Shown: positions 35,490 to 52,130 of the stretch, one piece after another | How the letters are laid out: the number at the start of each line of letters is the position of its first letter | How positions within the stretch are numbered: position 1 is the first letter of the stretch | Assembly (NCBI RefSeq): GCF_013363755.1 | Contig: NZ_CP054840.1 | Span: 510,001-574,000 of the forward strand | DNA: 64,000 bases | DNA from: Comamonas antarctica | Lineage (GTDB): Bacteria > Pseudomonadota > Gammaproteobacteria > Burkholderiales > Burkholderiaceae_C | Direction: 5' to 3' | Program-made: the position numbers and the translations under genes | Notes under the pieces: generated by a model | The model's database searches: none | Seen by the model: only the letters and a program-made list of their open reading frames with translations | Told to the model about the DNA's origin: nothing

Positions 35490-35555
35490 CAGCCAATGCG
35501 CCCGCCGGACGCACCGTTGCAGTGCGGGCGCACGCGCGCGGTGCGCGCGCCGGCC

Positions 35556-35990
35556 TCAGGCGTGTCGATGCTGGTGCGTATCGGCTGCGTCGCTGCCCAT
35601 GACGACGTTCAGTTGCCCATGGTGCACGCCGCGCTCCGCCATCAACTGGTTGGCGAACTGGCGCACCTGCTCGGCCGGTCCCTTGAGCATCACCGTCTCC
35701 AGGCAGCGCGAGTGGTCGAGGTGCACATGGGTCGTGGCAATGGTCAGGTGGTGGTGCGCATGCTGGAGCCGCGCCAGGCGCTCGGACAGCTCGCGCTCGT
35801 GGTGGTCGTAGACATACGACAGATTGGCCACGCAGGGACCCATGGCCTGCGCCGCCTCGCGTTGCTGCCCCAGGTGCGTGAGCAGCAGGTCGCGGATGGC
35901 CTCGGAGCGATTGCTGTGGCCCGTGCGCGCCATGTAGGCGTCGAATTCCTGGGCCAGGCGGTCTTGCAGGGAAATGGTGAAGCGTTGCAT
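35556..35990 (-). CDS. nikR: Nickel-responsive regulator NikR
   Basis: NikR represses nickel-uptake genes when nickel is bound. The 144-residue protein has a ribbon-helix-helix N-terminus (MQRFTISLQDRLAQEFD...SNRSEAIRDLL) and a C-terminal ACT domain with the high-affinity nickel ligands: His77, His88, His90 and Cys96, at a constant +1 offset from E. coli His76, His87, His89 and Cys95. The start at 35990 is taken; an upstream in-frame ATG adds eleven residues not seen in the family. Gene order nikR-TonB receptor-DUF4198 on the minus strand, with the ABC transporter divergent. Confidence 0.96.
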   Translation of the reverse strand: MQRFTISLQDRLAQEFDAYMARTGHSNRSEAIRDLLLTHLGQQREAAQAMGPCVANLSYVYDHHERELSERLARLQHAHHHLTIATTHVHLDHSRCLETVMLKGPAEQVRQFANQLMAERGVHHGQLNVVMGSDAADTHQHRHA

Positions 35991-36034
35991 GGCGGCAATG
36001 CTAGCGACGATCGTGCCGGACACCGATGCGGGAA

Positions 36035-36058
36035 AAACCGATTTTGCTTACTCGGTTT
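36035..36058. promoter_or_regulatory. Inverted repeat in the nikR/nikB divergent region
   Basis: AAACCGA (36035-36041) and TCGGTTT (36052-36058) form a perfect 7-bp inverted repeat with a 10-base spacer in the 147-base region between divergent nikR and the permease gene. It does not match the NikR half-site. It may be an operator of another regulator or a transcript hairpin. Confidence 0.45.
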
Positions 36059-36137
36059 CGTTCGTTGCGCGCGCCCGGGCGGCGCTCCTATGCTGGCGGA
36101 CGCAGCCGATTTGCGTTTTCCAAGGCACCCCTTTCCC

Positions 36138-37121
36138 ATGAATCTTCTCAAAGCCGGCCGGGTTCTGCGGCGCACCTTATGGCAGGCCGTGCCGACCGTG
36201 ATTGGCGTGGTCATCCTCAATTTCTGCCTGCTGCAACTGGTGCCCGGCGATGCGGCCGATGTCATTGCCGCCGAATCGGGCTCGGCCACGGCCGAGTCCA
36301 TGGCGCAGCTGCGCAGCCATTTCGGCCTGGACCTGCCGGTGCTCGAGCAACTGGGCGCCTACCTCGACAACCTCGCGCATTTCAGCCTCGGCACCTCGCC
36401 GCGCTACAACCTGCCCGTCACCGAACTGATTGCCTCGCGGCTGCCCAATACCTTGCTGCTGATGCTGGCCGCGCTGGGCACGGCGCTGGTGGCGGGCGTG
36501 CTGCTGGGCAGCCTGATGGCGAGCCGCGTCGGGCGCTGGCCGGACCGCGTGCTGTCGGTGCTGGCGCTGCTGCTGTATTCGACGCCCAGCTTCTGGCTCG
36601 GCCTGATGGCGGTGGTGCTGTTCTCGGTGCACCTGGGATGGCTGCCCACGGGCGGCAGCGCCAGCATCGGCGTGCAGATGACGGGCTGGGACAGCCTGGT
36701 CGACCGCCTGCGCCACCTGGTGCTGCCGGCGCTGGCCATGTCGGGCTTCTATGTCGCGATCTTCGCGCGGCTCACGCGCGCCTCGATGCTCGAAGTCAGC
36801 CGCCAGGACTTCGTGCGCACCGCGATGGCCAAGGGCTTGCATCCGCTGCGCGTCACTTTGGGCCATGTGCTGCGCAATGCGCTGATTCCCGTGACCACGG
36901 TGGCGGGCATGCACTTCGGCACGCTGCTGGGCGGCGCGGTGGTGGTCGAGACGGTGTTCAGCTGGCCCGGCCTGGGCCGGCTGGCCTTCGAGTCGGTGAT
37001 GGCGCGCGACTACACCGTGCTGCTGGGCATCCTGCTGCTGTCCTCGCTGCTGGTGATCCTGGCCAACATGCTGGTCGATCTGCTGCATGCCTGGCTCGAC
37101 CCGCGCATCCAGCTGCGCTGA
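36138..37121 (+). CDS. nikB: ABC transporter permease, NikB/DppB type
   Basis: A 327-residue inner-membrane permease of the nickel/peptide class. It starts MNLLKAGRVLRRTLWQAVPT, has six hydrophobic helices and the EAA-type cytoplasmic loop (DFVRTAMAKGLHP). The segment LQLVPGDAADVIAAESGSA is the usual NikB/DppB periplasmic start. In the open frame, upstream residues are a shadow of nikR. The nickel assignment rests on the divergent nikR; a dipeptide or opine substrate is not excluded by sequence. Confidence 0.85.
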   Translation: MNLLKAGRVLRRTLWQAVPTVIGVVILNFCLLQLVPGDAADVIAAESGSATAESMAQLRSHFGLDLPVLEQLGAYLDNLAHFSLGTSPRYNLPVTELIASRLPNTLLLMLAALGTALVAGVLLGSLMASRVGRWPDRVLSVLALLLYSTPSFWLGLMAVVLFSVHLGWLPTGGSASIGVQMTGWDSLVDRLRHLVLPALAMSGFYVAIFARLTRASMLEVSRQDFVRTAMAKGLHPLRVTLGHVLRNALIPVTTVAGMHFGTLLGGAVVVETVFSWPGLGRLAFESVMARDYTVLLGILLLSSLLVILANMLVDLLHAWLDPRIQLR

Positions 37122-37141
37122 ATTCATTCGAGAACCCTTCC

Positions 37142-38092
37142 ATGTCCACTCCCTTTCCCGTGACCGACGCGCGCCCCGCGCCGGCGCTGCCCACGCTCTG
37201 GCGCCGCCTGCGGCGCGCCGGGCCGGCCGCCGCCGCGGTGCCCACGCCCCATGCCGGGCGCAGCGCCGCGCTGCATGCCTTTGCGCGCAATGCCGCAGCC
37301 GTAGGCGCGGTGGTATTCCTGCTGGCCGTGCTGGCCATGGCGCTGCTCGCGCCCTGGCTGTTTCCGGGCGATCCGCTGGACATGGTGGCCACGCCGCTGC
37401 TGTGGCCCGGGCAGGACCCGGGGTTTGCGCTGGGCAGCGATTCGATGGGCCGCGACGTGCTGGCCGGCATTGCGCATGGCGCGCGCATGTCGCTGTCGGT
37501 GGGCGTGGTGGCCGCGGTGCTGAGCCTGCTGATCGGCATCGTGGTCGGCGCCACGGCCGGCTATTTCGGCGGCCGCGTCGACGATGTGCTGGTGCGCATC
37601 ACCGAGCTGTTCCAGACCATGCCCTCGTTCCTGTTCGTGATCGTGGTGGTGGCCATCGGCCAGCCGTCGATGGCGGTGATCGTGCTGGCCATCGGCCTGG
37701 CTTCGTGGCCGGTGATCGCGCGCCTGGTGCGCGCCGAGTTCCGCACGCTGCGCGAGATGGAGTTCGTGCTGGCCGCGCGCAGCCAGGGCTTCGGCCACCT
37801 GCGCATCATGCTGCAGGAGATGCTGCCCAACGCGCTGCCGCCGGTCATCGTGACCACCTCGGTGCTGGTGGCCAGCGCCATCCTGATCGAATCGGCGCTG
37901 TCCTTCCTGGGCATGGGCGATCCGAACACCGTGAGCTGGGGCAGCATGATCGGCGAGGGCCGCGAACTGCTGCGCACCTCGTGGTACCTGTGCGCGCTGC
38001 CCGGCACGGCCATCGTGCTGACGGTGCTGGCGCTCAATCTCGTGGGCGAAGGCCTCAACGATGCCCTCAACCCCCGACTGCGCAACCGCTGA
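37142..38092 (+). CDS. nikC: ABC transporter permease, NikC/DppC type
   Basis: A 316-residue permease partner of the preceding gene, 20 bases downstream. It has an N-terminal Ala/Pro-rich extension of about 45 residues, six helices, the LGSDSMGRDVLAGIAHGARMSL signature (given partly) of the NikC/DppC group, and an EAA loop (EFVLAARSQGFGHLRIM). It ends one base before the ATPase start, consistent with one operon. Confidence 0.86.
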   Translation: MSTPFPVTDARPAPALPTLWRRLRRAGPAAAAVPTPHAGRSAALHAFARNAAAVGAVVFLLAVLAMALLAPWLFPGDPLDMVATPLLWPGQDPGFALGSDSMGRDVLAGIAHGARMSLSVGVVAAVLSLLIGIVVGATAGYFGGRVDDVLVRITELFQTMPSFLFVIVVVAIGQPSMAVIVLAIGLASWPVIARLVRAEFRTLREMEFVLAARSQGFGHLRIMLQEMLPNALPPVIVTTSVLVASAILIESALSFLGMGDPNTVSWGSMIGEGRELLRTSWYLCALPGTAIVLTVLALNLVGEGLNDALNPRLRNR

Positions 38093-38093
38093 C

Positions 38094-39812
<1,719 letters not shown>

Positions 39813-39852: not shown

Positions 39853-41613
39853 TCAGGCGGCTTGCAGGTGGGCATGCTGCCCCAGCCAGGGCAGCAGCGC
39901 CGCCTTGTCCATGGGCCGGGCGATATGGTAGCCCTGGCCTTCGTGGCAGCCCATGGCGCGCAGCGCATGCCAGGCGGCCGCATCCTCTATGCCCTCGGCC
40001 AGCACGCTCAAGCCCAGCTTGCGTCCCAGTTGCGCGACCATTTCGGCGATGCGCGCGCCATGCGGATCGCCAAGCTGGCGCGTGAAGGAGCGGTCGATCT
40101 TGATGCGGTCCAGCGGCAGGCGTTCGAGATAGCTCAGCGATGAATAGCCGGTGCCAAAGTCATCGATGGCAATCGAGATGCCCTCGGCGCGCAAGGCGCA
40201 GAGCGTGAGGTCCAGCAGCTGGGTCGGAAGCGCCGCCACCGATTCGGTGATCTCCAGTTCCAGATGCCGCCCCTGCAAGCCGTGCGCCGCGAGCGCCGCG
40301 CACACCAGGTCGAAGAAGCCCGGGTCGCGCAACTGCACGGTCGAGACATTGACCGCCATGCGCCGCGGCGCCAGCCCGGCGTCAAGCAGTTCGCGCATGG
40401 TCGCGCAGGCGGTCTCCAGCACCCATTGTCCCAGCGCCACGATCAGGCCCGAATGCTCGGCCACGGGAATGAACTGGTCTGGCGGAATGAAGCGCTGGTC
40501 CTCGGTGCGCCAGCGCAGCAGCGCCTCGAGCCCGGTGACCTGGCGCGTGCCGAGCTCGAGCTGCGGCTGGTACACCAGGAACAGCTGCTGCTTCTCGATG
40601 GCATCGCGCAGCTCCGACAGCAGCCGCGCGCGCGCACGCGCCTCGGTGCCCATCTGGTCGGCATATTGCAGGTATTGGCCGCGGTGGTCGCGTTTGGCGC
40701 GCTTGAGCGCAATCGTCGCATCCTTGATCAGATCGGCGCCCGGTTGCGGCGCCTTGGGCAGCAGCACATAGCCGCAGGTCAGCGACACCTTGTGCGCCAC
40801 GCCCTCGAAATGCAATGGCTGGCGCACGCACTCCAGCAGGCGCCGGGGCTGTACCTGCGGCACCGGGCCCAGCACCGCGAACGTGTCCGCGCCCAGCCGC
40901 GCCAGCAGCACGCCCGCGGGCAGCGAGCTTTCGAGGCGGCGTGCGACCTGTTCAAGCAGGCGGTCGCCAAAATGGTGGCCCATCATGTCGTTGGTCGCGC
41001 TGAAATCGTCGATGTCGATCAAGGCCACCATATGGTCGTCGAGCCCGCGCTGTTCACAGGCATTGACGCGGTCGATGAAGTGCGCGCGGTTGGGCAGATT
41101 GACCAGCGGGTCGTGGTAGGCGCTGGCGTGCACCGCGCACAGCTGCTTGTAGGAGCGCACGGCGGTGACGACCATCGCCAGCAGCCGGTCGCGCGTCAGC
41201 TCGGCCTTGGTGCGGTAGTCGTTGATGTCGTAGCGCAGCAGTGTCTCGAGATCGGGCACCTGCCCGGGCCGGCCGGTGCGCAGCACGATGCGGGTGTTGC
41301 CCAGGCCCGCGCTGTGGCGGATGAAATCGACCAGTTCCAGCCCCGAGCTGCCGGGCTCGGACACCACGTCGATCAGCACCATGGCCAGGTCGTGTTCGCG
41401 CAGCAGCAGGGCGCGCGCCTCGTCGCCGGAGAACGCATGCATGAACACCAGCGGGCGTCCGAACAGCAGCTGGCCTTCGAGCGCGGCGCAGGTCGCGGCA
41501 TGCACGTCGGGGTCGTTGTCGACCACCAGCACGCGCCAGGCGGGCGTATCGTCGGGCGCGGCCACGCGCGCGCCGGGCACGGCACGCGGGCCCGGTGCAG
41601 GTTCAGACCACAT
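39853..41613 (-). CDS. Response regulator with degenerate GGDEF and intact EAL domain
   Basis: A 586-residue c-di-GMP phosphodiesterase candidate. The N-terminal receiver reads LVVDNDPDVHAAT and VLIDVV, and carries RTGRPGQVPDLETLLRYDINDY, a form typical of two-component receivers linked to c-di-GMP proteins. The middle GGDEF domain is degenerate (GADTF in place of GGDEF). The EAL domain is intact: EALLRW, ELEITES, IDDFGTGYSSLSYL, KIDRSF and EGIED with GCHEGQGYHIARPM. The start is uncertain; 41613 overlaps siaD by 11 bases. It terminates the siaABCD operon and would oppose SiaD. Confidence 0.88.
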   Translation of the reverse strand: MWSEPAPGPRAVPGARVAAPDDTPAWRVLVVDNDPDVHAATCAALEGQLLFGRPLVFMHAFSGDEARALLLREHDLAMVLIDVVSEPGSSGLELVDFIRHSAGLGNTRIVLRTGRPGQVPDLETLLRYDINDYRTKAELTRDRLLAMVVTAVRSYKQLCAVHASAYHDPLVNLPNRAHFIDRVNACEQRGLDDHMVALIDIDDFSATNDMMGHHFGDRLLEQVARRLESSLPAGVLLARLGADTFAVLGPVPQVQPRRLLECVRQPLHFEGVAHKVSLTCGYVLLPKAPQPGADLIKDATIALKRAKRDHRGQYLQYADQMGTEARARARLLSELRDAIEKQQLFLVYQPQLELGTRQVTGLEALLRWRTEDQRFIPPDQFIPVAEHSGLIVALGQWVLETACATMRELLDAGLAPRRMAVNVSTVQLRDPGFFDLVCAALAAHGLQGRHLELEITESVAALPTQLLDLTLCALRAEGISIAIDDFGTGYSSLSYLERLPLDRIKIDRSFTRQLGDPHGARIAEMVAQLGRKLGLSVLAEGIEDAAAWHALRAMGCHEGQGYHIARPMDKAALLPWLGQHAHLQAA

Positions 41614-42355
41614 GCTCGGCGGCATGCAGGCAGGCGGCTGCCTGCCGGACCTGGTTGCGGCCCGCGCGCTTGGCGATGAACAAGGCCTCGTCGGCCAGCC
41701 CGTAGGCGCTGTCGAAATCGCCGCCCGCGCCGGCCCAGCAGACGCCGAAGCTGGCGGTGACGCGGCTGCCGTCGGGCAGATTGAACGCATGGTTCTCGAT
41801 GGCGCGCCGCAGCGCCTGCGCCACCTGCTCGGACTCGGCGCCGCTGTGCCGCGGCAGGGCGACGGTGAACTCCTCGCCGCCCACGCGGCCGACGTGGGCG
41901 GACGCGGGCACGACGGCCTGCAGGCAGGCCACCACGCCCAGGATCACGCGGTCGCCCATGGGATGGCCGAAGCTGTCGTTGATGCGCTTGAAGTGGTCGA
42001 TGTCGAGCACGATCAGCGCCAGGTCCTGGTGCGCGAACATGCGGTTCACGCGGTCGATGATCGCCGCGCGGTTGAGCACGCCGGTGAGCGGATCGTGGTT
42101 GGCGCGGTGCTCCAGCTCGGCCGCGAGGTCTTGCAGCCGCGTGTTCAGCTGGTTCATCTCCAGCTCCGCCTTGTCGCTGCGCCGCACCAGCCGGCGCGTC
42201 TCGCGCAGCAGCCGCTCGTAGGCGACGATCAGGTCGGCCAGCGCCTCGCCGCCCGGCGCTGGCGCGGCGGCCGCATGCGCCGACTTCGCGGCCTGCAGCG
42301 CCTGGTTCTCGGCATCGAACAGATCGGGCACGGGCCCGGCGTCGGCGCAGGCCAT
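41603..42355 (-). CDS. siaD: Diguanylate cyclase SiaD
   Basis: SiaD makes c-di-GMP when activated by SiaC. The 250-residue protein has an N-terminal helical/coiled-coil region (about residues 35-85, RLLRETRRLVRRSDKAELEM) and a GGDEF domain with NHDPLTGVLNRAA, DIDHFKRINDSFGH and the active site RVGGEEFTVAL. No RxxD inhibitory motif precedes GGEEF. SiaD starts directly after the SiaC stop, with no gap. The order matches the Pseudomonas siaABCD operon. Confidence 0.9.
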   Translation of the reverse strand: MACADAGPVPDLFDAENQALQAAKSAHAAAAPAPGGEALADLIVAYERLLRETRRLVRRSDKAELEMNQLNTRLQDLAAELEHRANHDPLTGVLNRAAIIDRVNRMFAHQDLALIVLDIDHFKRINDSFGHPMGDRVILGVVACLQAVVPASAHVGRVGGEEFTVALPRHSGAESEQVAQALRRAIENHAFNLPDGSRVTASFGVCWAGAGGDFDSAYGLADEALFIAKRAGRNQVRQAAACLHAAEHVV

Positions 42356-42751
42356 TCAGGCACCTCCCACCGCGCGGGTGACGAAGTCGATGGCCGGGAA
42401 ATCCTCGCTCAGCTCCTGGCCGAATTCGAGAATCGTGTCGTCTTCTTCATCGTGGTACCAGTTCAGGCGCACCGGGTTGCCGTCCTCGGCGGCATTGCTC
42501 AGCGCCTCGATCAGGTTGAACAGCATCTTGGTGCTGGAGCTGTTGAAGTAGGCCAGCGCGATGTGCACTTCCAGCGCGCTGCCCGACTGCGCCGCAAGAA
42601 ACGCCTTGAGGCGCGCAATGATGTCGCCATAGAAAGCCGCGGCGTTCTCGGGATAGGACTCGCCGCGCAGGCTCAGGCTGCGCGCGTCGAACTGGAAATC
42701 CACCTCGGGAGAGCTGGGCGTGGGGGCGATGTAGAGGTTTTCCATGGGCAA
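42356..42751 (-). CDS. siaC: SiaC, anti-sigma-antagonist-like regulator (DUF1987)
   Basis: SiaC in Pseudomonas is phosphorylated by SiaB and, unphosphorylated, binds SiaD and activates it. The 131-residue protein matches the DUF1987 family, with IAPTPSSPEVDF near the start, LRGESYPENAAAFY, and AYFNSSSTKMLF at residues 67-78. The Ser/Thr run SSST is where the phosphorylated threonine would lie. The start is at 42751 or the next ATG (42745). It overlaps neither neighbour, but abuts siaD. Confidence 0.92.
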   Translation of the reverse strand: MPMENLYIAPTPSSPEVDFQFDARSLSLRGESYPENAAAFYGDIIARLKAFLAAQSGSALEVHIALAYFNSSSTKMLFNLIEALSNAAEDGNPVRLNWYHDEEDDTILEFGQELSEDFPAIDFVTRAVGGA

Positions 42752-42779
42752 TCTTGCTGCGTTGGCGGGCGGGGCGGGC

Positions 42780-43352
42780 CTAGATGGCGGCCTTCAGGTA
42801 GAAGACCGGCGAGTCGCCCGAAGCGTCAGCGGTGTCGAAATCGAACTCCAGGGGCTGGCTTGCATCCCGGGCCACGGTGAGAAATCCCATGCCCGCGCCC
42901 TTGCTGCCTTCGGGCGTGTCCTCGCGCAGCGTCTGGCGGTAGGCCTGCTTGATTTCGTCCAGCGTCATGTTGCGCAGCGCCCCGAGCTTCACGCGCAGTT
43001 CCTCGGCCACCGGCGGCGCGATCGGGTTGGCGCACAGCAGCAGGAAGCTGCCGTCGGCCTCGCGGCGGATGCACACCGAGCCGTGGCGCAGCTCGCCGTT
43101 GTTCTGGCTCGGCGGGGTCAGCGCATCCGCCGAGTAATGGATGATGTTCTGCGCCATCTCGACAAACGACGAGAACAGCTTGCGCCGCGTGGGCGCGGGC
43201 ACGCCCGCGACTTCGAGTTGCAGCTTCACCGCATCGGCCATCGCGGCCACGATGTGCTGCGAGAAGTAGCCGACGTAGTAGAAGATGACCTGGTGCTGGC
43301 GCGCCAGGTGGAAGAAGGCGCCGTACTTTTCGGCAATCAGCGGGGAGGGCAT
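42780..43352 (-). CDS. siaB: SiaB-type protein kinase (DUF6272)
   Basis: SiaB phosphorylates SiaC and so switches off SiaD. The 190-residue protein matches the SiaB/DUF6272 family with a HATPase-like fold: EMAQNIIHYS carries the N-box-like asparagine region, GSKGAGMGFLTVARDA the glycine-rich ATP lid. It lies 28 bases upstream of siaC and 12 bases downstream of the phosphatase gene. Assigned from fold features and operon position. Confidence 0.88.
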   Translation of the reverse strand: MPSPLIAEKYGAFFHLARQHQVIFYYVGYFSQHIVAAMADAVKLQLEVAGVPAPTRRKLFSSFVEMAQNIIHYSADALTPPSQNNGELRHGSVCIRREADGSFLLLCANPIAPPVAEELRVKLGALRNMTLDEIKQAYRQTLREDTPEGSKGAGMGFLTVARDASQPLEFDFDTADASGDSPVFYLKAAI

Positions 43353-43364
43353 GGCGGGCAGGGC

Positions 43365-44597
43365 TCAGGTTCGGAAGCAAAAGAAGGTCAGGTCGTCGCG
43401 GCGCGGCTGCTCGCCCTGCCAGTCGCGCAGGGCCTCCACCAGCGCGGCATTGACCTGCGCCGGGGTGTGGGCGTGGTGTTCGCGCAGCAGTTCGCGCACC
43501 CGGCGCTTGCCGAAGGCAATGCCGCGCGGCCCGCCGATCTGGTCGATCAATCCGTCGGTGCTCACGAACACCAGGCTGCCCGCGGGCAGCTGCAGTTCCT
43601 GGTTGCGCCACACGTAGTTGAAATCGCTGTCGACATAGCCCACGCCCTGGCGCTGGCCGTCGAGCATCTCCACGCCGTCGGCACCGGGGCGCAGCACGAA
43701 CATCGTCAGCCGCGCACCCGCAAACACCAGCTGGCCGCTCGCGGGCTCGAACCAGAAGCAGGCCGCATCCATGCCGTCGTCCGACCCCGGCGTGTCGTCC
43801 TGGCCGTCGACCTGGCCCAGCATCTGCTTGATGCTGCGGTTGACATGGCCCAGCAGCCCGGCCGGGTCCTTGGGGCCGTTCTGCTCGATCGCCTGGCTCA
43901 GGCTGGTGGACGCGATCAGCGTCATGAACGCACCCGGCACGCCGTGGCCAGTGCAGTCGGCGACGGTGGCGAACCAGCCGTCTTCGGCGGTGCAGAACTG
44001 GTAGAAATCGCCGCCCACGATGTCGCGCGGCTCCCACACCAGATGCGCCTGCGGGCAGGCGCGCGCCAGGGCCTCCAGGGAACTGCGCAGCGTCGAGCGC
44101 TGGATCACGCTCGCATATTCGATGCTGTGCATGATCTGGCGGTTGCGCGAGGCCTGCATGTCGGCGACCACGCGCATCAGCTGCAAGCCGTTGCCGGTAC
44201 CCGCGAATGCGCCGTCGCGCGTGATGATGAAGCCATCGGTCAGCGCCTTCTCGCCGTATTCGACGGTCTTGCGCGTCAGCGCGTCGATGTCGAGGGCGGC
44301 GTCGACGACCAGCGGCTCCTTGTCCATGAACGCAATGCAGCTCTTCCTGCCATACAGCTCGTTGCGGAACTGCTTGCTCATCTGCGACAGGAAGATGCTG
44401 CGGCTGATGAGGCCGATGGGCTTTTGGCCTTCGACCACGGGAAGGCTCACCAGGTCCTTGTGCCGGCCGAAGACCTCCATGACCTTTTCATTGGTCTCGT
44501 CGGGCGCCATGCTCGGCACCTCGATGCACAGATCGGCGGCACTGGGCTGGCGAAAGCGCGGCCGGACGCCGCTGAGGTACTCGGGGAGATCGCGCAT
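43365..44597 (-). CDS. siaA: SiaA-type PP2C/SpoIIE phosphatase with N-terminal CBS domains
   Basis: This 410-residue protein is the expected phosphatase that dephosphorylates SiaC. The C-terminal PP2C (SpoIIE) domain has PRDIVGGDFYQF, VADCTGHGVPGAFM, STDGLIDQI and RRDDLTFF. Unlike Pseudomonas SiaA, which has a transmembrane periplasmic sensor and HAMP, the N-terminal 160 residues are soluble and look like a CBS pair: VSLPVVEGQKPIGLISRSIFLSQM and a second half FIITRDGAFAGTGN; the FRNELYGRKSC segment is typical of CBS pairs found in c-di-GMP enzymes. It may sense a nucleotide in the cytoplasm. Overall order siaA-B-C-D is kept. Confidence 0.85.
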   Translation of the reverse strand: MRDLPEYLSGVRPRFRQPSAADLCIEVPSMAPDETNEKVMEVFGRHKDLVSLPVVEGQKPIGLISRSIFLSQMSKQFRNELYGRKSCIAFMDKEPLVVDAALDIDALTRKTVEYGEKALTDGFIITRDGAFAGTGNGLQLMRVVADMQASRNRQIMHSIEYASVIQRSTLRSSLEALARACPQAHLVWEPRDIVGGDFYQFCTAEDGWFATVADCTGHGVPGAFMTLIASTSLSQAIEQNGPKDPAGLLGHVNRSIKQMLGQVDGQDDTPGSDDGMDAACFWFEPASGQLVFAGARLTMFVLRPGADGVEMLDGQRQGVGYVDSDFNYVWRNQELQLPAGSLVFVSTDGLIDQIGGPRGIAFGKRRVRELLREHHAHTPAQVNAALVEALRDWQGEQPRRDDLTFFCFRT

Positions 44598-44736: not shown

Positions 44737-46332
44737 TTACTTCTTCGGTTCCAACCAGACATCGGCCAGGTTCGACTCGACGCCATCGGCGGTGAGCGAA
44801 TGGTCGTGCACGCGCTGGTTCGCAATGGTGATGAACTCGGGCTGGTAGAGGTTCAGGTCCGGCACGTCGCGCGCCACCTGGTCCTGGAAGTCCTTGAACA
44901 GCTTCTTGCGTTTGACCGGGTCGTTCTCGACGGCCGCGTCTTCCAGCAGCTTGTCGACCACGGGGCTGTTGTAGTGCGTGCCATTGGAGAAAGGCACGCC
45001 CTTGATGAAGTTCTTCGACCAGTACAGCCGCTGCACGCCCACCGTGGGGTCGAACAGGTTGCTCGCGCCATTGGTGGTGAACGCGAAGTCGCGGTCGGTG
45101 TAGATGCGCTTGATGAAGGCGCTCGGGTCCTGGGCGCGCACCGTCACGGCGATGCCGATGCGTGCCAGCGCGGTGCGGATGTAGTCGGGCAGGCGCGTGC
45201 CTTCGGCGCTGATCGGGTTGAAGTCCAGCGGCAGCGCGAAGCGCACGCCGCCGGCCTTGCGCGGGTAGCCGGCTTCATCGAGCAGCGCGTTGGCCTTCTT
45301 CAGGTCGTACGCATAGGGCGAGGGCGCGGGGTCGTGGTAGGCGGCGAGGCCCGGCGCGATCGGCGAGTAGCTGACCTTGCCGTAGCCGTAGTTCACGACC
45401 TTGACGATCACGTTGCGGTCCAGCGCATGCGCCACCGCCTGGCGCACCTTGTCGTTCTTGAAGTACTCGTTGTCGAGGTTGAACTCCAGGCGCGTGACAT
45501 TGTGCGAATAGCTGTTGCCCTTGGTCTCGAAGCGCAGCGTGGGAATCTTCTTCAGGCGCTCGAGATCGGCCAGCGGCACGGGCGTGCGGTAGCCCAGATC
45601 CACGGTGCCGGTCTCGAAGGCCACCGCCGCGGCCGCCGGGGCGCCGACGAAGCGCACGATCAGCTGGTCGACATAGGGCTTGGGCTTGTCCCAGTAATCG
45701 GCGTTGCGCTCATAGCCGATGTGGCTGCCGCGCACCCATTCCTTGAACCTGAACGGGCCCGTGCCCACGGGCGCGTTGTTGTTGGGGTTGGACTGGGCCG
45801 GCGTGCCTTCGTACCGGTGTTTGGGCACGATCGGGGTCTCGGACGCCACCAGCGCGCGGATCAGATAGGGCGCGGGCTTGGACAGGCGGATGATGGCCGT
45901 GTGCTTGTCCGGCGTGTCGATGCCGCTGACGTTGGCGAAGGTGTTGCGCCCGCGCGGGTGGATCTTCTTGAGCAGGTCGATGGAGAAGGCCACGTCGGCC
46001 GAGGTGAACTCGCGCCCGTCATGCCACTTGACGCCCTGGCGCAGGTGGAAGGTATAGGTCAGGCCGTCGGGGCTGATGCTCCACTTCGTGGCCAGCTGCG
46101 GCTGCGGGTTGACGCCGTAGTCGTACTTGAGCAGGCCTTCGGTGACCTTGGCGCTGACGCTCAGGATCGGCGTGGCGACATTGCTCACCGTGACCAGCGC
46201 GGTGGGCTCGGTGGGCAGCAGCAGCGTGAGCGTGCCGGAATGGTCGGGCGGCGCGGCGTGGCTGGCCAGGCCGATGCCCAGCAGCGCGGCGGCCAGCAGG
46301 GAACGGGTGCGGAAGGTGAATGGATGCTTCAT
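44737..46332 (-). CDS. Family 5 extracellular solute-binding protein (peptide/nickel type)
   Basis: A 531-residue periplasmic binding protein of the DppA/OppA/NikA family. The signal peptide ends near residue 26 (SHAAPPD). The family signature is seen in LATKWSISPDGLTYTFHLRQGVKWHDGREF (quoted partly as TYTFHLRQGVKWHDG). It lies upstream of siaA, downstream of the hyu genes on the same strand, and is separated from them by a repeat array. It could deliver a peptide, glutathione fragment or cyclic amide to the hyu system. It is far from the nik permeases (about 7 kb), so linking it to them is speculative. Confidence 0.88.
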   Translation of the reverse strand: MKHPFTFRTRSLLAAALLGIGLASHAAPPDHSGTLTLLLPTEPTALVTVSNVATPILSVSAKVTEGLLKYDYGVNPQPQLATKWSISPDGLTYTFHLRQGVKWHDGREFTSADVAFSIDLLKKIHPRGRNTFANVSGIDTPDKHTAIIRLSKPAPYLIRALVASETPIVPKHRYEGTPAQSNPNNNAPVGTGPFRFKEWVRGSHIGYERNADYWDKPKPYVDQLIVRFVGAPAAAAVAFETGTVDLGYRTPVPLADLERLKKIPTLRFETKGNSYSHNVTRLEFNLDNEYFKNDKVRQAVAHALDRNVIVKVVNYGYGKVSYSPIAPGLAAYHDPAPSPYAYDLKKANALLDEAGYPRKAGGVRFALPLDFNPISAEGTRLPDYIRTALARIGIAVTVRAQDPSAFIKRIYTDRDFAFTTNGASNLFDPTVGVQRLYWSKNFIKGVPFSNGTHYNSPVVDKLLEDAAVENDPVKRKKLFKDFQDQVARDVPDLNLYQPEFITIANQRVHDHSLTADGVESNLADVWLEPKK

Positions 46333-46380
46333 GGCTTGGAACGGGAATGCAGAGGGAAGGATTGGGGGACGTGGCCGTTC

Positions 46381-46573
46381 ATGGTTCGACAGGCTCACCA
46401 CGAACGGTTTGCATGGTTCGACAGGCTCACCACGAACGGACAGGCGCACCACGAACGGTTTGCATGGTTCGACAGGCTCACCACGAACGGTTTGCATGGT
46501 TCGACAGGCTCACCACGAACGGACAGGCGCACCACGAACGGTTTGCATGGTTCGACAGGCTCACCACGAACGG
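46381..46573. repeat. Tandem repeat array of 83-bp composite units
   Basis: Five copies of a 27-bp core beginning ATGGTTCGACAGGCTCACC start at 46381, 46413, 46464, 46496 and 46547. Spacings alternate 32 and 51, so the array is 2.3 copies of an 83-bp unit. The core has an inverted repeat (GTTCG with CGAAC). The array starts immediately after the stop codon of the hyuB gene and ends about 50 bases before the binding protein start. Confidence 0.93.
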
Positions 46574-48262
46574 TTAGCCGGGACCAGCGGCCTGCGCATA
46601 GGCTGCGGCCGCTTCGGGCGAGATCAGCCCATGGCGCAGGTCTTGCGCGATGCGCTCGGCGGGGCGCTGCGCGGGCAGGCCCAGGCCGCCGCCGCCCGGG
46701 GTCTCGACGATCAGCCGGTCGCCCGCGGGCACGACCTGGCGGCCCTTGGGCTGGAGCGTGGCGCCCGAGGCCAGGTACAGGCGCCCGGGCGCGCCGTCGA
46801 GGCCGCCGAGCGCGCCGCGCGCCGGGTGGTGCACACGGTCGAAGGCCGCGGCAATCAGCAGCGCGGCCTTTGGGTCGGCATGGCGCACTTCGATCACCTG
46901 GCCCAGCCCGCCGCGCGCCGCGCCCGCGCCGCCCGAGTCCGTGCGGAACTCCTTGCGCTCGAAGCGCAGCGGCGCCTGGGTCTCGAGGATTTCCAGCGAT
47001 ACATTGCGCACGCCGCTGGGGTAGGCGGTGACCGAAAGCCCGTCCTGGCCCGGGCGCGCGCCCGTGCCGCCGGTCGAGAAACTGATCGCATTGAAGCGCG
47101 GGCCGTTGCGCAGCGCGGCGTTGTCCTCGGCACTCGCGCCGCTCAGGCCCTCGCCGCCCACCAGCTGCAGGTTCCACAGCGACGACGCGCCTTCGGCCGG
47201 AACCAGATCGGGACGCGCCTGGCGCAGCGCGCCGAACACCACGTCGGGCAGCAACTGGCCGATCACATGGCGCGCCGTGACCGCGGCAGGGTGCAGCGCG
47301 TTGAGGATGCAGCCTTCGGGCGCAGCGATGCGGATCGGCGCCAGCGAGCCGGCGTTGTTGGGCACATCGGCGCCGACCAGGCAGCGCACGCCAAACGAGG
47401 TATAGGCGTCGGTATAGGCCTTGGGCACATTGATGCCGCGCGCCACCGTGCCCGAGGTGCCGCTGAAGTCCACGTCGATGCCGTCGTCGGAGATGGTGAC
47501 GCTGGCCGTGAGCGTGACCGGCGCGTCGTAGCCGTCGGACACCAGCGTGTTGTGCCACACGCCCCGCGGCCACTGCGCAAGCGCGTTGCGCATGGCGCGC
47601 GCCGACTGCGCAATGATGTAGTCGCCCAGCGCCTCGAGGTCGTCCAGCGCGAACTCCTGCATCAGCGTCTTCAGCCGCCGGCTGCCGACTTCGTTGCAGG
47701 CGACCAGCGCGAACAGGTCGCCTTCGACCTGGGCCGGATCGCGCACATTGGCATGGATGATGGCCAGCACCGCCGGGTCCACCTCGCCGGCGCGAATGAA
47801 GCGCAGGATGGGCAGGAACAGCCCCTCGTGGTAGATCTCCAGGCCGTCGGGGCTTGAGCCGATGCCGCCGATATCGACCACATGCAGCGTCGCCGCGAAC
47901 AGCGCCACGGCGCGGCCCGCGCGGAACACCGGCGTGACCATGGTCATGTCGAACAGATGGCCCGTGCCTTTCCACGGGTCGTTGGTGAGGAACACATCGC
48001 CGTCGCGCATGCCGTGCAGCGGGAACGCATGCAGGAAATGCTTGACCGATTCGGCCATCGCATTCACATGGCCGGGCGTGCCGGTCACGGCCTGCGCGAC
48101 CATGCGGCCGTCGGGGAGGAACACGCCGGCCGACAGATCGCCGGCCTCGCGCGTGGGCGTGCCAAAGGCGGTGCGGATCAGCGTCTGCGCCTGTTCCTCG
48201 ACCACGGACAACAACCGGTTCCACGCGAGTTGCTGGCGAATGACTTGCTTTGCGTCGCTCAT
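46574..48262 (-). CDS. hyuB: Hydantoinase B/oxoprolinase family protein, copy 1
   Basis: HyuB is the partner subunit of ATP-dependent hydantoinase or 5-oxoprolinase. The 562-residue protein has the family's NDPWKGTGHLFDMTMV, NNAGSLAPIRI and DGYDAPVTL segments and the C-terminal SGGAGAARGGLGQ. The ATG at 48262 overlaps the stop of copy 2 as ATGA. It is closely similar to the gene at 48259 over its whole length. The stop TAA abuts the repeat array. Confidence 0.93.
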   Translation of the reverse strand: MSDAKQVIRQQLAWNRLLSVVEEQAQTLIRTAFGTPTREAGDLSAGVFLPDGRMVAQAVTGTPGHVNAMAESVKHFLHAFPLHGMRDGDVFLTNDPWKGTGHLFDMTMVTPVFRAGRAVALFAATLHVVDIGGIGSSPDGLEIYHEGLFLPILRFIRAGEVDPAVLAIIHANVRDPAQVEGDLFALVACNEVGSRRLKTLMQEFALDDLEALGDYIIAQSARAMRNALAQWPRGVWHNTLVSDGYDAPVTLTASVTISDDGIDVDFSGTSGTVARGINVPKAYTDAYTSFGVRCLVGADVPNNAGSLAPIRIAAPEGCILNALHPAAVTARHVIGQLLPDVVFGALRQARPDLVPAEGASSLWNLQLVGGEGLSGASAEDNAALRNGPRFNAISFSTGGTGARPGQDGLSVTAYPSGVRNVSLEILETQAPLRFERKEFRTDSGGAGAARGGLGQVIEVRHADPKAALLIAAAFDRVHHPARGALGGLDGAPGRLYLASGATLQPKGRQVVPAGDRLIVETPGGGGLGLPAQRPAERIAQDLRHGLISPEAAAAYAQAAGPG

Positions 48263-49959
48263 GCCGGCACCTCCGCCGCAGCCGAATACTGCGCTGCGCC
48301 TTCGGCAGAGACCAGGCCGGCCTGCAGATCGCGCGCCAGGCGCGCGGGGTCGCGTTCGCGCGGATCGCCCAGGCCCGCGCCACCGGGGGTCTCGACGATC
48401 AGCACTTCGCCTGCGGGAATCAGCTGCCGGCCCTTGCCGCGCAGCAGCGTGCCCGCGTTCTGCAGCCGCGCCCGGCCTGTGGCGCCATCGCCGCCGCCCA
48501 GCGCGCCGCGCGGCGCGAAGCGCACGCGGTCCCAGCTCGCGGCCAGCACCATCGGCGCGCCGTCGGCGTTCTCCACGGCAATCGTCTGGCCCAGGCCGCC
48601 GCGCTGCGCGCCCGCGCCACCCGAGTCGGCGCGGTACTCCTTGCGCCGGAACAGCAGCGGCGCCTGCGTCTCGAGGATCTCCAGCGAGACATTGCGCACG
48701 CCGCTGGGATAGGCCGTGGCCGAGAGCCCGTCCTGGCCCGGCCGCGCGCCCGTGCCGCCAGTGGTGAAGCTGGTGATCGAGAAGCGCCGCGCCTGGGCCA
48801 GCGCCTCGTTGGGCCCGCCCGGGAACGGCCGGCCGCCGACGAGATGGATGTTCCACAGCGACGACGCGCCCTCGGCCGGCACGCGGTCGGGGCGCGCCTG
48901 GCGCAGTGCGCCGAACACCAGGTCCGGCAGCATCTGGCCGATTGCCGAGCGCGCCGTGACGGCCGCGGGCGGCAGCGCGTTGACGATCGAGCCTTCGGGC
49001 GCGGTGACCTGGATCGCGGCCAGCGAGCCCGAATTGTTCGGCACGTCGGAGCCGATCAGGCAGCGGATGCCAAACGAGGTGTAGGCATCGGTATAGGCCT
49101 TGGGCACGTTGATGCCGCGCGGCACCGTGCCCGAGGTGCCGGTGAAGTCGACGCGCACGCCGTCCTCATCGATGGTCACGGCCGCATGCAGCTCCAGCGG
49201 CGCGTCGTAGCCATCCACCGTCATGTGGTTGTGCCAGGTCCCCTTGGGCCATGCGCGCAGGGCCTCGCGCATGGCGCGCGCCGAGCGCTCCACGATGTAG
49301 TCGCCCTGGGCCCGCAGGTCATCGAGCGCGAATTCGCGCAGCAGCTGCTGCAGCCGGCGCGCGCCCACGGCGTTGCAGGCCACCAGCGCATGCAGGTCGC
49401 CCTCGACCTGTTCGGGTTCGCGCACATTGGCGCGCACGATGGCCAGGATCGCCTCCTGCAGCACGCCTTCGCGCACGAAATGCAGCAGCGGCAGGAACAG
49501 GCCTTCGTGGTAGATCTCCAGGCCGTCGGGCCCCGCGCCCAGGCCGCCGATATCGACCACATGCACCGTCGAGGCAAACAGCGCGACGATCTTCGCCTGG
49601 TGGAACACCGGCGTGACCATCACCACGTCATAGAGGTGGCCCGTGCCTTTCCATGGGTCGTTGGTGATGAACACATCGCCATCGCGCATGGTCTCGGCGG
49701 GGTAGGCGCGCAGGAAATGCAGCACCGAGTCGGCCATCGAGTTCACATGGCCCGGCGTGCCCGTGACGGCCTGCGCGATCATGCGGCCGTCGGGCAGGAA
49801 CACGCCCGCCGACAGGTCGCCGGCCTCGCGCGTCGAGGTGCCGAAGGCGGTGCGTATCAGCGCCTGGGCCTGCTCTTCGACCACGGCCAGCAGGCGGCTC
49901 CAGATCAGTTGCCGGCGGATGGTCTGGCGCAGGGCCTGGCGTTGTGCGGCGGCGCTCAT
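48259..49959 (-). CDS. hyuB: Hydantoinase B/oxoprolinase family protein, copy 2
   Basis: The 566-residue paralogue of the next gene, with the same start pattern (RLLAVVEEQAQALIRTAFGT) and family motifs (NDPWKGTGHLYDVVMV, NNSGSLAAIQV). The two proteins align without large gaps; by eye about two thirds of residues are the same. The stop overlaps the next ATG (ATGA) and its own ATG overlaps the hyuA stop. Divergence is highest in the 90 residues at the C-terminus and around the EVGSRR/AVGARR region. Confidence 0.93.
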   Translation of the reverse strand: MSAAAQRQALRQTIRRQLIWSRLLAVVEEQAQALIRTAFGTSTREAGDLSAGVFLPDGRMIAQAVTGTPGHVNSMADSVLHFLRAYPAETMRDGDVFITNDPWKGTGHLYDVVMVTPVFHQAKIVALFASTVHVVDIGGLGAGPDGLEIYHEGLFLPLLHFVREGVLQEAILAIVRANVREPEQVEGDLHALVACNAVGARRLQQLLREFALDDLRAQGDYIVERSARAMREALRAWPKGTWHNHMTVDGYDAPLELHAAVTIDEDGVRVDFTGTSGTVPRGINVPKAYTDAYTSFGIRCLIGSDVPNNSGSLAAIQVTAPEGSIVNALPPAAVTARSAIGQMLPDLVFGALRQARPDRVPAEGASSLWNIHLVGGRPFPGGPNEALAQARRFSITSFTTGGTGARPGQDGLSATAYPSGVRNVSLEILETQAPLLFRRKEYRADSGGAGAQRGGLGQTIAVENADGAPMVLAASWDRVRFAPRGALGGGDGATGRARLQNAGTLLRGKGRQLIPAGEVLIVETPGGAGLGDPRERDPARLARDLQAGLVSAEGAAQYSAAAEVPA

Positions 49960-52130
49960 GCGGCCACCACCAGTTCGGCTTCTGCCTCGGCCGCCCGCGC
50001 CAGCTGCTGCGTGTCGTCGAGAATCAGCGCGCCCAGCTGGCTCAGGCGCACTTCGAAGCCCGCGATCACATGGGTGGTGGTTTCATCTTCGACAATCAGC
50101 GCCGGGCCGGCAAGCCATTGGCCGGGCTTGAGCAGCTGGCGTTCGTAGACCGGCACGGCCTGCCATTGGCCGCTGTCGGCGTCGTAGACCTCGCGGCTTT
50201 GCGTGGAAACCGCGCGCGCCTGGTCGGCGGGAATGTGATCAGGCGCGGGCGCCGCATGTTCGCCGGCCTGCACCGCCACCGACCAGCTCACGGCCTCGGC
50301 CGCGATGTGCGGCAGGCTGCGGCCATAGAGCTCGGCGTAGCGCTGCTCGAAGCGCTGGTGCAGCAGGGAAGAAGCCGAGGCGTCGAAGGGCCCGTCGGGC
50401 AGGGCCACGGGAATCTCGTGGCCCTGGCCCGCGTAGCGCATGAACACCTGGCGCTGGCGCACCAGCACCTCGCCCGGCGCGGCGCGCAGCACCACGGCAT
50501 CGGCGGTTTCGGTGAGTTCGCCCAGCAGGCGCTCGACGGCCGTGTGGTCGATGCGGCCCAGGCGCTGGTGCAGGCTGCGCACCGTCTGGTAGGCCACGGG
50601 CGCCCAGAGAAAGCCCAGCGCCGAGCCCACGCCCGCCGAATTCGGCACCACCAGGCGCGCGATGCCCAGCTTGCGCGCCAGCAATGCGGCATGCAGCGGT
50701 GCCGCGCCGCCAAACGCGATCAGCGTGCTTTCATCGGCAGACTTGCCCAGCTCCGACGCATGCACGCGCGCGGCGTTGGCCATGTTCTCGGTGACGATGT
50801 CGATCACGGCCTGGGCCGCGGGTTCGGCCTCGAGCCCGGTCTGCGCACCGAGCCCGCGCTCCAGCGCGGCGCGGGCCAATCGCGGATCGAGCTGCACCTT
50901 GCCGACGGCAAAGCGCGCCGGGTCGACATGGCCCAGCGCCGCATGCGCATCGGTCACGGTGGGCTGCGCGCCGCCCAGGCCATAGGCCGCCGGGCCCGGG
51001 CTCGATCCCGCGCTGTCGGGGCCGACCTGCACCACGCCCAGGTGGTTGACGCGCGCGATCGAGCCGCCGCCCGCGCCGATCTCGACCATCTCGATCACCG
51101 GAATGCGGATCGGCAGTCCCGAGCCCTTGAGGTGGCGGTGCACGCGGCCGAACTCGAAGCTGCGGCTGACCTGCGGCTGGTAGTCGTCGATGAAGCAGAT
51201 CTTGGCCGTGGTGCCGCCCATGTCGAACGACAGCGCGCGCGCCGCGCCGATCTGCTCGGCCACCTGGCGCGCCAGCACCGCGCCGCCCGCGGGGCCGGAT
51301 TCGACCAGGCGCACCGGCTCGTCGATGCCGCTTTGCAGCGTGGTGAGCGCGCCGCCCGAGGTCATCAAAAAGGGTTCCGAGTGCAGGCCGCGCTGCGTGA
51401 GGCCCTGCTGCAGCCGGCGCAGATAGCCCGCGACCTGCGGCTGCACATAGGCATTGGCCGACACCGTGGACAGGCGCTCGTATTCGCGGATCTCGGGGCA
51501 CACATCGGAGGCCAGCGAGACCCACAGCTGCGGCGCATGTTTCGCCAGGATGGCGCGCACGCGGCGCTCGTGGACCGGATTCGCATAGCCATGCAGAAAG
51601 CACACGGCCACGCTCTCGATGCCATCGGCCACGAGCTGCTTGGCCAGCGCCTCGACCTGGGCTTCATCGAGCGCCGTCAGCGCCTGGCCCGCGGCATTCA
51701 CACGCTCCACGACGCCATGGCGCCAGTGGCGCGGCACCAGAGGCGCGGGTTTTTCGAGGAACACGTCGTATTGCGCGAAGCGGTCTTCGAGGCCGATCTC
51801 GACCAGATCGCGAAAGCCGTGCGTGGTGATCAGCGCGGTCTTCGCGCCCTTGCGCTCGATCAGCGCGTTGGTGGCCAGCGTCGTGCCCAGGATCAGCAGT
51901 TCGACCTGCGTCCAGTCGAGCTCCGCGAGGCGCAGGATCTCCTCGACGCCCGACAGCACGGCCTGCTCGGGCGCCTGCGGCGTGGTGAGCACCTTCACGG
52001 TGTGCTTGCGCGCGCCGTGCAGCAGCACGACATCGGTAAAGGTGCCGCCGACATCGACGGCCACGCGCACGCGCGTATCGAGGCCGGCGGAGGGGGCTTG
52101 GGGGGCTTGGGGAGTCTGGGTGGGAGGCAT
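49956..52130 (-). CDS. hyuA: Hydantoinase/oxoprolinase subunit A (HyuA)
   Basis: HyuA binds ATP and drives ring opening of 5-oxoproline or a hydantoin with HyuB. The 724-residue ASKHA-fold protein has VDVGGTFTDVVL near residue 25, FDMGGTTAKICFID near 305, and PAVGPGPAAYGLGG-like glycine segments. It has an N-terminal Pro/Gln-rich leader. The stop overlaps the start of the following hyuB. The set hyuA-hyuB-hyuB is one operon, perhaps with the binding protein. Confidence 0.94.
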   Translation of the reverse strand: MPPTQTPQAPQAPSAGLDTRVRVAVDVGGTFTDVVLLHGARKHTVKVLTTPQAPEQAVLSGVEEILRLAELDWTQVELLILGTTLATNALIERKGAKTALITTHGFRDLVEIGLEDRFAQYDVFLEKPAPLVPRHWRHGVVERVNAAGQALTALDEAQVEALAKQLVADGIESVAVCFLHGYANPVHERRVRAILAKHAPQLWVSLASDVCPEIREYERLSTVSANAYVQPQVAGYLRRLQQGLTQRGLHSEPFLMTSGGALTTLQSGIDEPVRLVESGPAGGAVLARQVAEQIGAARALSFDMGGTTAKICFIDDYQPQVSRSFEFGRVHRHLKGSGLPIRIPVIEMVEIGAGGGSIARVNHLGVVQVGPDSAGSSPGPAAYGLGGAQPTVTDAHAALGHVDPARFAVGKVQLDPRLARAALERGLGAQTGLEAEPAAQAVIDIVTENMANAARVHASELGKSADESTLIAFGGAAPLHAALLARKLGIARLVVPNSAGVGSALGFLWAPVAYQTVRSLHQRLGRIDHTAVERLLGELTETADAVVLRAAPGEVLVRQRQVFMRYAGQGHEIPVALPDGPFDASASSLLHQRFEQRYAELYGRSLPHIAAEAVSWSVAVQAGEHAAPAPDHIPADQARAVSTQSREVYDADSGQWQAVPVYERQLLKPGQWLAGPALIVEDETTTHVIAGFEVRLSQLGALILDDTQQLARAAEAEAELVVAA

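Follow-up and report, generated by a model that had tools for sequence, protein, structure and literature searches.

A SiaABCD-type phospho-switch with a CBS-type SiaA in Comamonas antarctica and its probable gain of a dedicated phosphodiesterase

A window of 64,000 nucleotides from Comamonas antarctica, i.e. the whole stretch of DNA that was analysed, carries what is probably a SiaABCD phospho-switch of a CBS class that gained a phosphodiesterase of its own. The genes siaA, siaB, siaC and siaD, followed by a gene for a GGDEF-EAL protein, lie on the minus strand within 39853..44597 and all five are intact, which bears out the SiaABCD-type gene order described in an earlier note on this DNA. 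The features are as follows:

43365..44597, minus strand: siaA-like gene, 410 aa, with a CBS module, one long helix and a PP2C/SpoIIE phosphatase
44178..44549, minus strand: predicted CBS module in SiaA, made up of two helix-strand-strand-helix units and covering about residues 17-140 (Pfam of relatives, profile matches, model)
43368..44156, minus strand: PP2C phosphatase domain of SiaA, residues 148-410 (alignment A2 of 71 sequences; alignment to 6k4e)
42780..43352, minus strand: siaB-like kinase gene, 190 aa (Pfam, NCBIfam, alignment of E65)
42356..42751, minus strand: siaC-like gene (PF09345), with a TTG start in the mechanical ORF list, an ATG at 42745 being likelier
42539..42541, minus strand: Ser71 of SiaC (numbering from TTG) at the Thr68 position of P. 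aeruginosa SiaC (alignment to 6k4f/6kko; motif YFNSSST)
41603..42355, minus strand: siaD-like gene for a diguanylate cyclase of 250 aa with GGEEF at residues 159-163
42158..42187, minus strand: the one SiaC-docking-like motif (RRSDKAE) of the SiaD stalk, at about residues 57-66 (alignment to 7e6g; class comparison)
41897..41908, minus strand: absent I-site of SiaD, PASA (residues 150-153) in place of RxxD (sequence, alignment to 7e6g, class comparison)
39853..41613, minus strand: fifth gene, 586 aa, with REC 28-148, GGDEF 165-312 and EAL 334-567
41603..41613, minus strand: 11-nt overlap of the EAL gene, with its start codon, and the end of siaD (read in the sequence)

The Pfam scores of the window proteins were 91 bits for SpoIIE, 126.6 for DUF6272 (SiaB), 137.3 for SiaC, 117.5 for GGDEF and 240.3 for EAL, and SiaB passed the NCBIfam model of the SiaB-family kinase (SiaB_fam_kinase, 194.8 bits at a cut-off of 85). 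The Pseudomonas equivalog models of NCBIfam were not reached by any of the four Sia proteins (SiaA 213.5 of 700 bits, SiaB 64.9 of 225, SiaC 83.9 of 150 and SiaD 140.2 of 290). Since all four scores lie well under the cut-offs, the window proteins are regarded as relatives and not as equivalogs of the Pseudomonas proteins. The metal-site and PP2C residues of SiaA (D197, D214, C215, G217, D348, G349, D401 and D402) are kept and invariant in A2 (n = 71). E65 of the window SiaB aligns with E61 of PA0171, the predicted catalytic residue according to PMC7647112. Promoter and terminator scans found 0 and 0. A flanking transporter was ruled out as a part of the system, with strong matches only in L001/L197, L047/L198 and L199 among 59 loci scanned and weak ABC matches of 35-36% in L034, L035 and L048.

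The SiaA proteins fall into a CBS class and a long class, in which HAMP-linked, in part Cache-like, sensors stand at the place of the CBS module. The order sample comprised 71 SiaC places, 65 of which were fetched; left out were the family loci G000, G088, G280:C23 and G517, of which the first three are siaA-B-C-D loci near the CBS type, and a pair of fragments adjoining a G241 place. Among the 65 loci, CBS-type SiaA was found at 32 and long SiaA at 25, the two classes being about equally frequent in this sample. On a tree of PP2C, SiaB and SiaC the two types are separated by one change (SH-aLRT 100, quick method). The earlier note knew of no described module with exactly this set of genes; the CBS-type module itself is widespread in the order sample and not unique to the window.

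The proposal of a cytoplasmic CBS-type N-terminus instead of a membrane sensor is supported by sequence and model: the N-terminus of SiaA is best described as a soluble CBS module that replaces the sensor. The CBS family of Pfam gave no match at E <= 1 in the window's own SiaA; PF00571 was found at E <= 0.01 in 59 of the 71 relatives aligned in A2. A profile of the N-terminus matched 19 chains among the PDB sequences at E <= 0.1 (best 9e6q with 3.3e-8 and 5g5r with 1.7e-7), mostly on the first CBS repeat. By name 14 of these chains are CBS proteins, and the remaining five presumably are as well. As a check by structure prediction, the AlphaFold model of SiaA is confident (pLDDT 91.1) and shows two CBS-like helix-strand-strand-helix units at the N-terminus. 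Fold searches with the full model returned, among the matches listed, phosphatase-related chains only, which speak to the phosphatase part and not to the CBS part, and an hhalign comparison of the two repeats against each other, with probabilities of 3.4 and 2.1, lent the assignment no support. A hydrophobic 19-residue window above 1.6 was not present in the window SiaA nor in 118 of 123 CBS-type SiaA, and was present in 26 of 27 long SiaA, of which L170 and L183 were placed in this class by length alone.

Whether the module senses is a separate matter. It may instead be a structural dimerisation module, a reading that we consider unlikely. In its favour, neither repeat of the window SiaA has, by eye, the Asp that we take to mark ribose binding in CBS pairs, and Pfam also places this module between the EAL and GGDEF domains of other proteins. 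Given the lack of this Asp, the nucleotide that the earlier note offered as one possible input finds no support either. Against this role stand the strong conservation of the CBS part, in which G62, R66, F90, P95, G122 and G133 are invariant in 71 sequences, and the sensors that hold the same place in the long class.

The two classes also differ in the switch protein and in the cyclase, by features that the earlier note did not mention. All counts across loci are raw, include shared ancestry and come from tables that exclude L081-L121 (short or of other origin) and are not deduplicated, so that at least L197 (= L001), L198 (= L047) and L156 (= L055) are counted twice; L122 is a HisKA-REC-SpoIIE protein. 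The phospho-site of SiaC is Ser in 123 of 123 CBS-class proteins and Thr in 24 of 25 long-class proteins with siaD. Accordingly placed in the alignment, Ser71 of the window SiaC is a phosphorylatable residue and a putative phospho-site. An RxxD I-site was present in 25 of 25 long-class SiaD vs none of 96 in the CBS class, which includes L044 (siaA matches in two frames, script class 'other'); KxxD takes its place in five distant CBS-class proteins (L123, L127, L157, L158 and L173). With a pattern composed after inspection of the SiaD stalks, two docking-like motifs were counted in 24 of 25 long-class SiaD and one in 89 of 96 CBS-class SiaD by script, and in the other seven by eye.

For the fifth protein, 21 aligned sequences show no variation at E363, N422, E454, D484, D485, K505, E540 and Q560, which we take to be the canonical catalytic residues of EAL. 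Its GGDEF motif is degenerate and reads GADTF in 12 of the 21, window included, with variants in the others. The receiver had been called degenerate, which holds only in part: it scores 22.4 bits at a Pfam cut-off of 30.2 and its acidic pocket reads DND with one position being Asn, but Asp82 is kept at the phospho-acceptor position. This Asp is kept in 13 of 17 aligned sequences having a receiver (window included) and replaced by Gly in four. In relatives such as L001 and L014 the fifth gene encodes a REC-DUF3369-GGDEF-EAL protein, whereas the proteins of the window, L047 and L199 lack DUF3369, a domain that the earlier note did not mention, and in L023 and L031-L033 the receiver is absent or a remnant.

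The linkage of this gene to siaABCD was followed at three levels. Within the genus, the EAL ortholog and siaABCD occur in exactly the same 14 of 53 genomes (at most the best 25 candidates per genome scored). Among the best 80 CBS-siaA loci, the EAL gene directly follows siaD in 31, and 45 have no EAL gene there. The contexts of the 32 five-gene loci number 16 on the upstream side and 17 on the downstream side, as defined by set thresholds on flanks of at most 6 kb, where loci with short flanks may be wrongly split. Among the ten gene pairs of the five-gene loci, siaD and EAL show the highest distance correlation, 0.865. Only two of nine CBS-siaABCD genomes in the family sample have the ortholog (own and G069; at most the best 9 candidates per genome scored); G067, G084 and G116 carry an unrelated EAL gene at the same place and the four others none. 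One further per-genome search scored at most the best 3 candidates per genome. Of the 32 CBS loci of the order sample, 23 lack siaD beside siaC and an EAL gene adjoins siaD in 0 of the 9 others. Four family loci are left out of this tally, and two of them, those of the own genome and G280, carry the EAL gene.

The EAL gene is thus supported by gene order and co-occurrence as a part of the siaABCD unit in this lineage. The assumption of a shared circuit holds to this extent and is not general, and the proposed survey of Burkholderiales found CBS-siaA genes common without finding EAL beside siaD in the fetched CBS loci that have siaD. Chance adjacency was ruled out by the genus co-occurrence and the recurring block (EAL matches number 19 in the 5.0 Mb of the own genome). 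L011 and L013 sit in the EAL-bearing part of the tree with no EAL gene beside siaD. Unrelated EAL-domain genes directly follow siaD in L038, L042, L190/L191 and L136/L146, the last pair having an I-site plus the linked EAL gene. A strict rule by which loss of the I-site entails a linked phosphodiesterase was ruled out by L136/L146 and by 56 CBS-class rows with neither RxxD nor an EAL gene (a few end after siaD). In six loci siaA-siaC-siaB is followed by an HD_5-type protein (five of the six scanned with Pfam). These proteins keep HHExxDGxGYP and were not counted as another linked phosphodiesterase, because TMN stands at the place of the expected HD pair.

There is a minor chance that the EAL gene is a passenger, i.e. 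an independent response-regulator phosphodiesterase driven by a histidine kinase, which shares the operon by accident and has the global c-di-GMP pool as its target. The REC-DUF3369-GGDEF-EAL make-up in relatives, the receiver Asp kept in most sequences, the 45 loci without an EAL gene after siaD and one EAL ortholog that sits on a Caballeronia grimmiae IncP plasmid with no sia genes point in this direction. However, the exact co-occurrence over the genus and the recurrence of the block in 16-17 contexts argue against it, as does the sensory half, which varies in DUF3369, receiver and receiver Asp while the EAL site stays invariant; moreover, Pfam found no histidine kinase among the five encoded proteins. 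That the EAL protein is not an enzyme, and instead reads c-di-GMP or GTP and serves SiaD as a scaffold, is highly improbable, since its degenerate GGDEF motif, as regulatory GGDEF-EAL proteins have, is set against the invariant EAL catalytic positions.

For the preferred reading of a CBS-class switch with a gained phosphodiesterase, the following working is proposed. By homology, the kinase SiaB would phosphorylate SiaC at Ser71, and SiaA as a soluble CBS-PP2C phosphatase would remove the phosphate once a cue from inside the cell reaches its CBS module. In its unphosphorylated form, SiaC would then dock on the single motif of the SiaD stalk and switch on c-di-GMP synthesis. Because the RxxD I-site is absent from its sequence, SiaD should escape the kind of braking that P. 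aeruginosa SiaD is reported to undergo by its own product. The fifth protein, with its EAL active-site residues and a start inside the end of siaD, would supply the breakdown of c-di-GMP. With a phosphodiesterase co-produced with a switchable cyclase, the output would be set by the balance of both. Of all parts of this scheme, the least certain is that the phosphodiesterase would compensate for the missing feedback site.

A further reaching and quite doubtful idea is that the CBS-class Sia system forms a separate, self-balancing c-di-GMP switch, in which a cytoplasmic CBS module of the EAL/GGDEF-linker type replaces the membrane sensor, the cyclase lacks a site for product inhibition and feedback comes from a dedicated phosphodiesterase in Comamonadaceae-type bacteria. 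The ligand of the CBS module might then be a guanine nucleotide from this cycle (GTP, pGpG, c-di-GMP or an alarmone), which would close the loop on the phosphatase.

The SiaABCD work found in the literature concerns Pseudomonas aeruginosa only. Since the CBS class seems to sense inside the cell and to drive a cyclase that lacks the usual feedback site, it becomes testable how c-di-GMP stays bounded without an I-site, and the five-gene version is a candidate answer in one operon. The classes also offer a natural experiment on the control of SiaD by SiaC, with Ser vs Thr at the switch and one vs two docking sites.

Among known systems, STAS partner switches on cyclases are described for HsbA-HsbD and the Bgr system with BgrR in PMC8457831. 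In both, as proposed for the window, a phospho-switched STAS-like partner acts on a cyclase, whereas kinase and switch belong to other families. We know of no linked EAL partner for these two systems. In EAL-CBS-GGDEF proteins the linker matches the SiaA CBS module with E values of 1e-34 to 1e-43 (search of three proteins); there it joins c-di-GMP enzyme domains, whereas in SiaA it precedes a PP2C phosphatase. The REC-DUF3369-GGDEF-EAL response-regulator phosphodiesterases resemble the fifth gene of L001 and L014, unlike the window, L047 and L199 without DUF3369, and their partner kinase is absent from the five-gene block of the window. With SiaABCD of P. aeruginosa, which we take to be PA0172-PA0169, the window shares the gene order, the PP2C phosphatase, the SiaB kinase, the SiaC (DUF1987) switch and the stalk-GGDEF cyclase, and the catalytic residues and one docking motif are kept. 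It differs by the replacement of the HAMP-linked membrane sensor with a soluble CBS module, by the putative Ser phospho-site of SiaC instead of Thr68, by a SiaD without I-site and with one docking motif instead of two, and by the added fifth EAL gene.

The gene order siaA-siaB-siaC-siaD claimed by the earlier note was found intact in the window (minus strand), and the end of siaD is overlapped, as also claimed, by the start codon of a GGDEF-EAL gene, the overlap comprising 11 nt. The features of the region are as follows:

44597 down to 39853, minus strand: siaA, siaB, siaC, siaD and the GGDEF-EAL gene, head to tail
35496-39812, plus strand: flank of the five-gene block
44737-52130, minus strand: flank of the five-gene block
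35556-36023, minus strand: short ORF, antisense to the first transporter permease ORF

siaA and siaB are separated by 12 nt, and siaD starts at the very next base after the stop of siaC. The Pfam and NCBIfam families of the four Sia proteins match those expected for relatives of SiaA, SiaB, SiaC and SiaD; all four score below the cut-offs set for the Pseudomonas equivalogs (NCBIfam models). The metal-site residues of the SiaA phosphatase domain are invariant across 71 aligned sequences and agree with the reference structure 6k4e, the predicted catalytic Glu of SiaB is kept in the alignment, and SiaD contains GGEEF. Altogether, the five genes are a real unit that is well conserved within its own lineage.

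One flank comprises what we take to be a solute-binding protein with two HyuB-like genes and one HyuA-like gene, the other presumably an oligopeptide-type ABC transporter, and the short antisense ORF presumably resembles a NikR-type ribbon-helix-helix regulator. Among 59 loci scanned, this context was common only to L001/L197, L047/L198 and L199, and therefore the block seems to have been inserted at its present site within that small clade.

SiaC was detected in 61 of 399 genomes of the order-wide sample, in 15 of 150 of the family sample and in 15 of 53 of the own genus. The 80 regions fetched cover 65 of 71 SiaC places in the order sample, together with 10 loci from the family sample and 5 selected from the genus. 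The 65 order-sample loci showed 32 SiaA proteins with a soluble N-terminal CBS module, 25 long ones, 4 short and distant ones and 4 unassigned. A scan of nine long SiaA proteins found HAMP in six (not in L122, L170 and L183), three of which also show dCache below the cut-off. In an unrooted tree of phosphatase, SiaB and SiaC, built from the window and 95 of 150 loci after near-identical ones were dropped, the CBS and long types lie on opposite sides of one branch (SH-aLRT 100); long branches are flagged, among them L183, L170 and L122.

The same split is reflected in SiaC and SiaD, a point absent from the earlier note. According to PMC8457831, the RxxD I-site of P. aeruginosa SiaD consists of R170 and D173 and is tied to product inhibition, and the SiaD stalk carries two docking motifs. 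RxxD was present in 25 of 25 long-class SiaD, whereas it was found in 0 of 96 of the CBS class, where KxxD replaces it in five (L123, L127, L157, L158, L173) and the window SiaD shows PASA. At the phospho-site position, SiaC has Ser in all 123 loci of the CBS class and Thr in 24 of the 25 long-class loci that include siaD. Two docking-like motifs occur in 24 of 25 long-class stalks, and one in CBS-class SiaD (89 of 96 by pattern, the remaining seven by eye). These differences all go with a single split in the tree and do not count as independent events.

The linkage of the fifth gene was surveyed in the best 80 of 233 CBS-siaA loci. The EAL ortholog directly follows siaD in 31 of them, while 45 show no EAL gene there (L011 and L065 with short downstream sequence). 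Unrelated EAL proteins follow siaD in L038 (4HB_MCP-HAMP-GGDEF-EAL) and L042 (CSS-EAL), and L006 and L027 end in or at siaD. Membership of the EAL gene in the unit, which the earlier note had inferred, is supported within the genus, where the ortholog (E <= 1e-140) occurs in the same 14 of 53 genomes as siaABCD and G570, with siaABC only, is without it; the linkage is not general, the family sample having the ortholog in 2 of 9 genomes with CBS-type siaABCD (the own genome and G069). Another EAL gene follows siaD in G067, G084 and G116, and none in G036, G068, G077 and G088 (G067, G068, G077 and G088 being read via L038, L011, L034 and L013); exceptions to the linkage are L011 and L013, where the ortholog is missing next to siaD. 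Matches (E <= 1e-150) occurred in 7 of 150 family-sample genomes: the two sia-linked orthologs, and paralogs of 47-49% in five genomes without SiaC. In the order sample, the ortholog (E <= 1e-160) was found in 3 of 399 genomes, all with SiaC. Upstream, the 32 five-gene loci lie in 16 contexts, downstream in 17; of ten gene pairs, siaD and EAL have the highest distance correlation (0.865), these figures being uncorrected for shared ancestry. A further exception is L203 (NZ_CP084278.1), a conjugative IncP plasmid from Caballeronia grimmiae that carries the ortholog (70%) alone, with no sia genes within the 15 kb examined.

In relatives, e.g. L001 and L014, the fifth gene encodes REC-DUF3369-GGDEF-EAL. 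DUF3369 is missing from the products of the window and L047, which is most simply explained by an in-frame loss; the L199 copy aligns with the window copy along its entire length. The receiver is absent or a remnant in L023 and L031-L033, and its phospho-acceptor position is Gly in 4 of 17 aligned EAL proteins having a receiver. All 21 aligned sequences agree at the canonical EAL positions.

Further arrangements were observed at related loci. Six of them (L128, L145, L159, L160, L161, L171) have CBS-type siaA-siaC-siaB but no siaD, and an HD_5-type gene begins within ~30 nt after these three (e.g. L159:6987-8117). Its products keep HHExxDGxGYP and show TMN at the expected place of the HD pair; a possible role would be that of an alternative, perhaps non-catalytic, SiaC target. 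EAL-CBS-GGDEF proteins with the same CBS module as SiaA adjoin CBS-type loci at L176:6423-8348, immediately after siaC and with no siaD found at the locus, and at L190:8893-10683. A second, distant siaABC can accompany the five-gene block in genus members (L111-L114 in G540, G280, G539 and G588); its SiaC is 37-39% identical, and siaD is absent from the stretch examined. In the long-SiaA loci L136 and L146, a GGDEF-EAL gene starts right after siaD (PAS-GAF-GGDEF-EAL in L136), which represents a distinct case of such a gene becoming linked to siaD.

In P. aeruginosa, according to PMC7278518, PMC8457831 and PMC7647112, SiaC is phosphorylated by SiaB and dephosphorylated by SiaA, and in its free form it switches SiaD on. 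By homology, SiaB of the window would phosphorylate SiaC, SiaA would remove the phosphate, and unphosphorylated SiaC would turn SiaD on, the cue for SiaA being expected in the cytoplasm. With no I-site, the known form of self-braking is not expected of SiaD, and breakdown of c-di-GMP could come from the EAL protein, whose start codon lies inside siaD. That it stands in for the missing I-site feedback is put forward as a hypothesis: numerous SiaD of the CBS class have neither an I-site nor a linked EAL gene, and L136 and L146 have both.

Among the matches listed, titles and abstract openings of the open-access literature described neither a CBS-type SiaA nor a siaABCD-EAL unit, and the main texts of PMC7647112, PMC8457831 and PMC12834913 do not contain the term "CBS" (0 occurrences). 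The Sia module of the window is a variant of the already known SiaABCD kind, and its class differs from P. aeruginosa in a SiaD without the RxxD I-site and with one docking-like motif instead of two.
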